A stretch of 32,124 nt of DNA from Chloroflexota bacterium. GTDB taxonomy: Bacteria; Chloroflexota; Dehalococcoidia; Lucifugimonadales; Lucifugimonadaceae. The translations under genes and the position numbers were made by a program. The first letter of the stretch is position 1, and the number at the start of each line of letters is the position of its first letter. Shown here piece after piece: positions 1 through 1,774 of this stretch. The notes beneath the pieces were generated by a model that saw only the letters and a list, made by a program, of their open reading frames with translations, searched no databases and was not told the DNA's origin. The DNA is taken from contig JAQBVG010000017.1 in assembly GCA_027623655.1 (NCBI GenBank), forward strand, positions 1 through 32,124. Direction: 5' to 3'.

Positions 1-197
1 GCACTACCGCCACCAGTGGCGGGTTTCGCCGTGGCTGCGGGTGCTGCGGTAGCGGCCGCGATTGGCGCTCCTCCACCTGCGGGAGCGTCGCCGTCACTGC
101 TTTCGTCGCCACCACAGGCAACCGCAGCAACAACGAGCAAGCTACCGAGTGCCAGAAGCATCGGCGCCCATCGCTTTTTGAGCAAACTAAGATCCAT
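1..197 (-). CDS. Lipoprotein, probable transporter solute-binding protein (5' end only)
   Basis: The gene runs off the left edge; only the first 65 codons are visible. Translation begins MDLSLLKKRWAPMLL, followed by a hydrophobic stretch ending in a lipobox (AAVAC, Cys28), then CGGDESS and a Gly/Ala/Pro/Thr-rich linker. This is a type II signal peptide with a flexible tether to a membrane-anchored extracellular domain. The ATG at 197 is preceded by a strong GGAGG ribosome site (205-209) at normal spacing. Such N-termini are common in Chloroflexota ABC-transporter solute-binding lipoproteins, but the binding domain lies outside the window, so the substrate and even the family are inference. 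It has its own promoter, operator-like palindrome and structured leader with terminator (entries below), so expression is probably tightly controlled. Confidence 0.75.
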   Translation of the reverse strand, partial: MDLSLLKKRWAPMLLALGSLLVVAAVACGGDESSDGDAPAGGGAPIAAATAAPAATAKPATGGGS

Positions 198-241
198 GCT
201 ATTTCCTCCGAAAGGCCAAATATAGAAAGACCCCGTCCTCC

Positions 242-284
242 AAAAAAAAGAGAACGGGCCCCATCTAACACCAGGGGCTACCCG
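242..284 (-). terminator. Intrinsic terminator inside the leader of the lipoprotein gene
   Basis: Read on the minus strand: CGG, a 3-nt bulge, GCCCC, an 11-nt loop, GGGGC, CCG, then TTCTCTTTTTTTT. The pairs are 274-278 with 258-262 and 282-284 with 255-257; the eight-T run is at 242-249. No minus-strand gene lies upstream, since the next gene is on the plus strand. The terminator sits between the promoter (371-399) and the start codon (197), so it most likely acts as an attenuator for the lipoprotein gene. Confidence 0.6.
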
Positions 285-365
285 GCGACTCGAGCGAAAG
301 GAAGAACCTTCCTACTTGCAGCCAGCCGTGCCCCGGCTAAGTAATTGCCTCGCTCTGACAAGTGC
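285..365 (-). promoter_or_regulatory. Structured leader RNA (three-way junction), riboswitch candidate
   Basis: Downstream of the predicted transcription start (near 365) the minus strand can fold into a closing stem of 6 bp (350-355 with 292-297) holding two hairpins. One is AGCCG/CGGCT (324-328 with 334-338, loop 329-333). The other is AGGAAG/CTTCCT (299-304 with 308-313). The first hairpin shows GGGGC (330-334), identical to the 3' arm of the downstream terminator. It could therefore pair with the terminator's GCCCC arm (274-278) as an antiterminator. I do not recognise a known riboswitch consensus (no TPP, SAM, cobalamin, FMN, glycine or T-box hallmarks). The fold was drawn by eye and is not supported by covariation. 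Confidence 0.4.
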
Positions 366-370
366 CAAAC

Positions 371-399
371 ATGATAATTTAGCCCAGTCTAGATGTCAG
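371..399 (-). promoter_or_regulatory. Sigma-70-type promoter of the lipoprotein gene
   Basis: On the minus strand, -35 CTGACA (394-399) and -10 TATCAT (371-376) are separated by exactly 17 bp, each matching five of six consensus bases. The predicted start is near 365, giving a leader of about 170 nt before the ATG at 197. Confidence 0.65.
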
Positions 400-402
400 G
401 AG

Positions 403-425
403 CAGCCGTGAAATATACACGGCTG
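403..425 (-). promoter_or_regulatory. Operator-like palindrome upstream of the lipoprotein promoter
   Basis: CAGCCGTG, 7 nt (AAATATA), CACGGCTG form a perfect 8-bp inverted repeat ending 3 bp before the -35 box. There is no U-tract on either side, so it is more likely a protein-binding site than a terminator. Its position fits an activator or repressor of the lipoprotein gene. Confidence 0.45.
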
Positions 426-465
426 ACCCGAAAAGTCAACGTCGACTCACCTTTAATCAATCACG

Positions 466-531
466 GTTCACGGTAGTGGCCGTTTGTTCGAGTAATCACT
501 ACCAACGACTGGGCAAAACGACGCCGTGAAC
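466..531 (+). repeat. Nested inverted repeats upstream of the first enolase-family gene
   Basis: GTTCACGG (466-473) pairs with CCGTGAAC (524-531). Partly inside it GGTAGTG (472-478) pairs with CACTACC (497-503). These two pairings are competing or cruciform-like arms, 50 to 110 bp ahead of the ATG at 584. No convincing -35/-10 pair was found on this strand. They could be operators or a leader structure for the downstream gene. Confidence 0.35.
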
Positions 532-583: not shown

Positions 584-1774
584 ATGACTCCAAATACGAG
601 CTTTAGCATCAAGTCGGTCGAGTCGATTCATCTCGCGTTCAGGAACTCGGCATCGTACTGGGAGTCTTACAGAGCGAACGAAGGAGACAGGCTCACCGAG
701 CGTTTTGAGTTCAAGCAGGGATGGCAGACTGTCTACGCTCGCTATATCGAAACCCCGCTCGTAATAGTGACGTTGTCTGACGGTTCGGTCGGATGGGGGG
801 AGGCGAACGCCGGCATTGGCCCTGAAGTCGTCTGCCTGATCGTCACCGAACTAATCGGGCAGATGATCGAAGGTCAGGAGTACGAGAATCCGGCCGCCCT
901 TTGGGACTTTCTTTACGACACCCAGCGGGGTCGCGGATATTCCTCGGGATACTGGCTCGACGCACTGGCTGCAATCGACATTGCTGTGTGGGATGCGATT
1001 GGGAAGCGGGAACAATCACCGGTGGCTGCCCTTCTGGCGCCAGACCCTCGGGCTGGGTTCGACGTGTATTTGTCAGGTGTGCGTCGCTCGACCCTCGAGG
1101 AGCGCGTCGAACACGTCAACCGCTGGATAGACACTGGTCTCAAAGGCGCCAAGATATTCCTCACCGGCGATGTTGAAGCTGGCACGAACGAGTTGGATGG
1201 ATTGATGCAGGGCGCCCCGGGTCTTGAACAGTGGATGGTCGACACGTTGTGGATGTGCACGCACGAGTCTGCTGAGCTGGGCAAGGAGGAGTACGGCAAA
1301 CGCAACGTTCGCTTCTTCGAATGCCCGTTACAGCCGGAAGACCTGGACGGGCATCGAGAACTCGTAGCGAAACCGGGTGCCAAAATCGCGCTGGGTGAAC
1401 ACTTTCGATCGCGTTACCAGATGGAGTCATGGGTCAGGCAACCCCGCGCCCTCGACGTTTTTCAGCCTGATATAGGTCGCACAGGATTTACGGACTACAT
1501 GCTCCAGATGGAAATAGCCGCAAGGGCCGGGATTCCCACAACCCCCCATATGGGGAGCGGAGTCTCAGTGTTCCAGGCAGCTACCCTGCAGTGCGCTGCG
1601 GTCGCACCGCCTGAATACCTGCAAGAGTTCCAGGGTGGTCTATCGGACCGCCTGGAGCAGGCCTCGGACACCGCGTGGAAGTACGCTGACGGTGGTTTCA
1701 GGCTGCCCGATCGTCCGGGTATTGGCGTTGAGATAGACGAGTCGCAACTTGAGCAGTTCATCGTCAAAAAATAG
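584..1774 (+). CDS. Mandelate racemase / muconate lactonizing enzyme family protein (enolase superfamily)
   Basis: 396 aa, a full-length enolase-superfamily protein: N-terminal capping domain (about 1-150) then a (beta/alpha)7-beta barrel. Visible active-site elements are Lys190 in GAKIF on the second barrel strand, metal ligands Asp220 (MVD), Glu246 (FFECP) and Glu272 (LGEHF), and a likely Asp296 (QPDI) / His322 (TPHMG) acid-base pair. The usual second lysine of the KxK motif is replaced by Phe192, and the Asn that normally follows the Asp metal ligand is absent, so known substrate assignments should not be transferred. The family removes an alpha proton from a carboxylate and often dehydrates acid sugars. 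It stands alone on the plus strand, divergent from the lipoprotein gene. The ribosome site before ATG 584 is weak. Substrate unknown. Confidence 0.85.
   Translation: MTPNTSFSIKSVESIHLAFRNSASYWESYRANEGDRLTERFEFKQGWQTVYARYIETPLVIVTLSDGSVGWGEANAGIGPEVVCLIVTELIGQMIEGQEYENPAALWDFLYDTQRGRGYSSGYWLDALAAIDIAVWDAIGKREQSPVAALLAPDPRAGFDVYLSGVRRSTLEERVEHVNRWIDTGLKGAKIFLTGDVEAGTNELDGLMQGAPGLEQWMVDTLWMCTHESAELGKEEYGKRNVRFFECPLQPEDLDGHRELVAKPGAKIALGEHFRSRYQMESWVRQPRALDVFQPDIGRTGFTDYMLQMEIAARAGIPTTPHMGSGVSVFQAATLQCAAVAPPEYLQEFQGGLSDRLEQASDTAWKYADGGFRLPDRPGIGVEIDESQLEQFIVKK

Follow-up and report, generated by a model that had tools for sequence, protein, structure and literature searches.

At the edge of a SAR202 contig, the region upstream of a truncated lipoprotein gene raises the question of whether its transcript folds into an RNA that controls the gene behind it and, if so, by what means. 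The window analysed (32,124 nucleotides) is one entire contig of a 2.77 Mb genome in 216 contigs. The lipoprotein gene occupies positions 1–197 of the minus strand, with its ATG at 197 and only the N-terminal 65 codons present before the contig end; the rest of the gene matches contig G000:C127. Its earlier designation as a transporter binding lipoprotein is borne out by the orthologue in Candidatus Lucifugimonas marina JH1073 (G041; same GTDB genus as the window; leader locus L093, CP046147.1), which carries an SBP_bac_5 domain (Pfam PF00496, E 1.5e-34) and is an Opp/Dpp/Nik-type binding protein, with no equivalog-level assignment. This species is a cultured bacterium of SAR202 group I, and SAR202 bacteria are ubiquitous throughout the ocean (PMC10444878). 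A divergent enolase-superfamily (MR/MLE) gene (584–1774, plus strand) is a conserved neighbour of the lipoprotein gene, and BLAST and alignment give a gene order common to the window and its relatives on both flanks of the leader. Downstream, in Ca. Lucifugimonas marina, a strong intrinsic terminator lies 3' of the binding-protein gene. Next come two permease genes, which have a TTGACA promoter-like sequence of their own. The permease-gene leader (L036:11479–11794; L100, reverse strand) is ∼140–170 nt long; parts of it are conserved, and 6 of its 29 predicted pairs may covary. The same genome holds a second, diverged binding-protein copy (L098; G041:C1:3036973–3038937; 79% identity) that has one in-frame TAA near its N-terminal part and is not preceded by the leader RNA.

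Transcription is predicted to start at about position 405, behind a conserved promoter (412–439, minus strand) made up of a -35 TTGACT (439–434), a 16-nt spacer and a -10 TATATT (417–412), invariant in all 13 aligned sequences except for variation between TTGACT and TTGACA. The promoter suggested in the preliminary description, CTGACA-17-TATCAT, does match at five of six positions in each hexamer (399–371), but it is absent from all 12 orthologues and was set aside as a window-only feature. Likewise, the palindrome noted there is perfect in the window (8+8, 425–403) but falls to 0–5 of 8 in the 12 orthologues, and was rejected as an operator. The 13-sequence alignment shows conservation of the element TACCGTGAACCGTGAT (460–475, minus strand), two CCGTGNN repeats that read as the 7-nt direct repeats CCGTGAA CCGTGAT, ∼20 nt upstream of the -35 hexamer. 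It is found in four of six genomes, in a single copy and at this locus only (backward control, 0); since its sole site is here, it is a candidate local operator, or may be part of the divergent promoter region.

Between this promoter and the start codon lies a leader RNA of ∼205 nt (404–195, minus strand), which in the window folds better than shuffled sequences (z -2.7; 0 of 200). The fold was derived with MAFFT and RNAalifold followed by covariance-model realignment, P5 being aligned separately by its loop, and its elements run in the order P1, an unpaired linker, P2-P3-P4, P5 and the ribosome-binding region. P1 (353–401, minus strand, as are all the following) is a 5' hairpin of 10 + 8 pairs with a TTTTGTT-like apical loop in most orthologues, and 11 of its 18 pairs are changed on both sides. 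The linker CGAGGCAATTACTTA (338–352; 87% mean identity) is nearly invariant in the genus, and it leads into P2-P3-P4 (270–337), a long irregular hairpin with both-sided changes in 11 of 23 pairs and a conserved internal-loop strand between P2 and P3, CACGG (330–326; 93% identity). P5 (223–267) is a terminator-like hairpin with arms at 258–250 and 240–232, extended to TAGA/TCTA, and a T-rich stretch after it. The ribosome-binding region TATTTGGCCTTTCGGAGGAAATAG (199–222; 94% mean identity over all pairs) includes the GGAGG (209–205) that had been placed ahead of the ATG, and both are present in the window. A three-way junction had been proposed for this RNA; a structured RNA is indeed there, but its conserved fold has P1 and P2-P4 as two independent hairpins, one after the other. 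Pairing of AAGGC in the linker with GCCUU in the ribosome-binding region is also predicted; however, the near-invariance of both makes it uninformative.

The structure is supported by compensatory change. Across P1-P4, 22 of 41 pairs are changed on both sides, 87.7% of cells are paired (80.1% in shuffles and 38–50% in slid registers), and 44 cells are compensatory against 20.3 in shuffles, none of 500 reaching as high, although these counts come from an alignment fitted to the structure. For that reason a structure-free duplex scan was carried out on a sequence-only alignment, comparing the energy of all pairs of 12-column windows within and between species; its top signals were P5, P1, P2, the P1 upper stem and P4, and no other pairing. 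In P5, 90% of cells are paired and 20 are compensatory, a result reached by none of 1000 shuffles. Against a tree-based null of 300 AliSim alignments, simulated with equal base frequencies and with RNAalifold re-run on each, the observed RNAalifold energy was -34.3 (null minimum -22.5) and compensated pairs numbered 18 (null maximum 9). An R-scape-like per-pair test, which has little power with 11 sequences, gave no pairs at E < 0.05. A divergent orthologue (L014) that was left out of covariance model R1 nevertheless matches it at 24 bits. Covariation across homologues had been named beforehand as the check on this leader, and it came out positive by shuffling, duplex scan and tree simulation alike. 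The region does contain conserved elements at the DNA level, as would be expected if the fold were a chance product of a conserved divergent intergenic region under DNA-level constraint alone; such an origin is highly improbable, however, given compensatory changes in excess of shuffles, slid registers and tree-based simulation, and a P5 whose pairing is kept though its sequence is nearly free.

The conserved nucleotides and the conserved pairs lie largely apart. At fourfold-degenerate sites of the lipoprotein gene, the window shares 46–55% identity with its relatives. Conservation is far higher in the AGGCAAUUAC linker and in one strand of the internal loop: together these are 75–92% identical in species pairs whose fourfold sites are 38–64% identical, the closest pair (80%) being set aside. 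P5 identity is 45–80%, at or near the neutral level, yet the pairing is kept. Sequence conservation thus falls mostly on unpaired nucleotides, and in the hairpin preceding the gene it is the shape, rather than the sequence, that is constrained. Such an arrangement recalls an aptamer with an expression platform behind it, but it would suit a leader that binds protein or RNA just as well.

The leader is confined to one genus. A DNA search of 76 family genomes identified it in 12 further members of the genus (∼70–78% identity over longer matches), Ca. Lucifugimonas marina among them, always with the orthologous SBP_bac_5 lipoprotein gene downstream. By covariance model the full P1-P4 fold is present in the window and in 11 of these 12 genomes, one of them strongly diverged, in one copy per genome and at this locus only. 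Counting the window's own, 12 of 19 genus genomes match the model. The remaining seven comprise three with no lipoprotein match, three (G044, G047 and G055) in which the gene is a contig-end fragment lacking the leader region, and one with a deletion (G056). No convincing model match was obtained outside the genus in 76 genomes of the family, 250 of the order and 393 of the class, the large runs using stricter filters that may have missed weak relatives; with so many genomes searched, the matches in G025 (18.9 bits) and G213 (22.4 bits) are weak and were treated as chance, the latter also largely overlapping predicted ORFs. Motif matches in Bacteroidales, Firmicutes, Actinomycetota and a viral contig gave no convincing model score. 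No Rfam family out of 4227, among them the known riboswitch classes, reached its gathering cut-off in the window, and with permissive settings neither the window leader nor four orthologue loci gave anything above chance in the leader; permissive matches of eukaryotic miRNA and enterobacterial sRNA models fell in repeats of the lipoprotein coding sequence and reflect low complexity. The earlier statement that the leader matches no known riboswitch class thus agrees with the Rfam search, and in the literature searched we found no report of RNA-based regulation in SAR202. The preliminary description's undescribed structured leader, in which a terminator-like hairpin precedes the ribosome-binding site, is upheld by covariation and by the lack of an Rfam match: it is a real, undescribed, genus-restricted structured RNA, with compensatory helices and a constant place between a promoter and the same gene, as in structured cis-regulatory leader RNAs.

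Orthologues of the lipoprotein occur in eight genera. Three of the other genera were inspected, and there the orthologues have consensus promoters and leaders of 160–210 nt (L067, L068, L071–L083) that could not be aligned to the window leader and gave no match to the models; in their own alignments, two-sided changes affect 1, 6 and 6 pairs. These leaders have genus-specific conserved sequence and hairpins, for example GGCCCC...GGGGCC in one genus and CCACTGG...CTGGTGG right before the ribosome-binding site in another. On this comparison, a leader appears to be maintained before the orthologous gene while its sequence turns over. Unrelated leaders of such length before the same gene, together with the long permease leader, would suit a structured 5' UTR with a constitutive role, one that senses nothing and either keeps the mRNA stable or sets how strongly a highly expressed binding protein is translated. 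The hairpin at the extreme 5' end in this genus and the binding-protein gene's own strong 3' terminator, which is consistent with genes of the locus being expressed to different degrees, point the same way. We nevertheless regard a purely constitutive role as doubtful, as it leaves unexplained why the unpaired linker and internal-loop strand hardly vary.

As to how P5 may act, it is a GC-containing hairpin before the start codon, as in an attenuator. The preliminary description had called it an intrinsic terminator; the hairpin (258–232) is real and strongly covarying, but the T-tract behind it is interrupted in the window (TCTTTCTATATTT) and poor in several orthologues. The U-tract is good in L004 and L010, interrupted in L003 as in the window, and poor in L006, L007 and L012, and the lower stem of P5 pairs into it. 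Promoter, hairpin and U-rich stretch frame a unit of ∼180 nt, which could represent a small RNA ending at P5, with the lipoprotein mRNA as a read-through product of the shared promoter; this is very unlikely, considering the conserved ribosome-binding site a few bases downstream, the same gene always next and the weak U-tract. The proposed GGGGC/GCCCC antiterminator, which reaches -11.2 kcal/mol in the window, did not survive comparison: across orthologues the permutation p is 0.18 and pairing within species is no better than between species, so that it was rejected as a window-only coincidence. Among mutually exclusive alternative pairings, as expected of a riboswitch, none covaries (P2 3' strand with P5 5' arm, p 0.18), and the duplex scan revealed no covarying anti-Shine-Dalgarno pairing. 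Leader-peptide attenuation was also rejected: the window has no candidate short ORF with a Shine-Dalgarno sequence, and scattered, unrelated ones occur in a few orthologues, with none conserved. One orthologue has a natural deletion: in G056 (L013:114–200, minus strand) P1-P4 are lost while the promoter, a shorter hairpin and the ribosome-binding site are kept; the module is therefore dispensable in that genome, which suggests that the hairpin may not need P1-P4 to allow expression. Taken together, the antiterminator lacking covariation, the rarely continuous U-tract and the G056 deletion favour modulation of read-through, processing or translation.

We propose that a genus-restricted, cis-acting 5' leader RNA controls the Opp/Dpp-type binding-lipoprotein gene after transcription initiation, to which we would assign a probability of roughly 0.55 on the comparative evidence; a regulatory role of some kind is likely. 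Transcription would begin at the TTGACT-16-TATATT promoter, and the RNA folds into P1, the single-stranded linker, P2-P3-P4 and P5, the last right before an accessible ribosome-binding site. P1-P4, with the conserved unpaired linker and loop, would form a recognition module for a metabolite, protein or RNA partner, and P5 with its U-rich flank may serve as a leaky terminator or a pause or processing hairpin, so that read-through of P5, or the nearby ribosome-binding site, would set binding-protein output. A specific form of this proposal, overlapping with it, is a new ligand-sensing riboswitch in which P1-P4 are an aptamer for the substrate of the Opp/Dpp-type transporter or a related metabolite and P5 is the terminator. 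The aptamer-like conservation of unpaired linker and loop amid covarying helices, the terminator-like hairpin next to them, the transporter binding-protein gene and the failure of any known class to match are all consistent with it; even so, we consider it unlikely, as neither an antiterminator nor an anti-Shine-Dalgarno pairing covaries, the leader is restricted to a single locus in a single genus, and unrelated leaders before the orthologues in other genera argue against a common ligand pocket. More speculative still would be a one-genus SAR202 riboswitch class for a transporter substrate or related metabolite, in a clade where unrelated leaders have replaced one another before the same orthologous gene. 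Whichever partner is involved, Ca. Lucifugimonas marina is in culture and has a defined leader RNA whose fold is supported by covariation, so that this RNA is amenable to probing, and unrelated leaders of similar length across genera raise a testable question of leader replacement while the regulated gene stays in place.

Among known systems, the name potC points to a polyamine-transport gene. The potC motif RNA (RF01751) and the msiK motif RNA (RF01747) are putative cis-regulatory RNA motifs, the former found only in marine sequences and the latter in 5' UTRs of an ABC-transporter ATPase gene (PMC2864571); the SAR202 leader differs from both in sequence, architecture and lineage, and matches neither in Rfam. 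Orphan transcription attenuators and terminator-bearing leaders, the subject of an earlier survey (PMC2965389), likewise place a terminator-like hairpin downstream of the promoter and ahead of the start codon, and their sensing structures are described there as diverse and fast-evolving; compared with these, the SAR202 leader has no conserved antiterminator, and its U-tract is weak in several orthologues. Unlike metabolite riboswitches it occupies a single locus in a single genus and has no covarying alternative pairing, but like those with terminator platforms it places a conserved unpaired core within covarying helices, followed by a hairpin of variable sequence.
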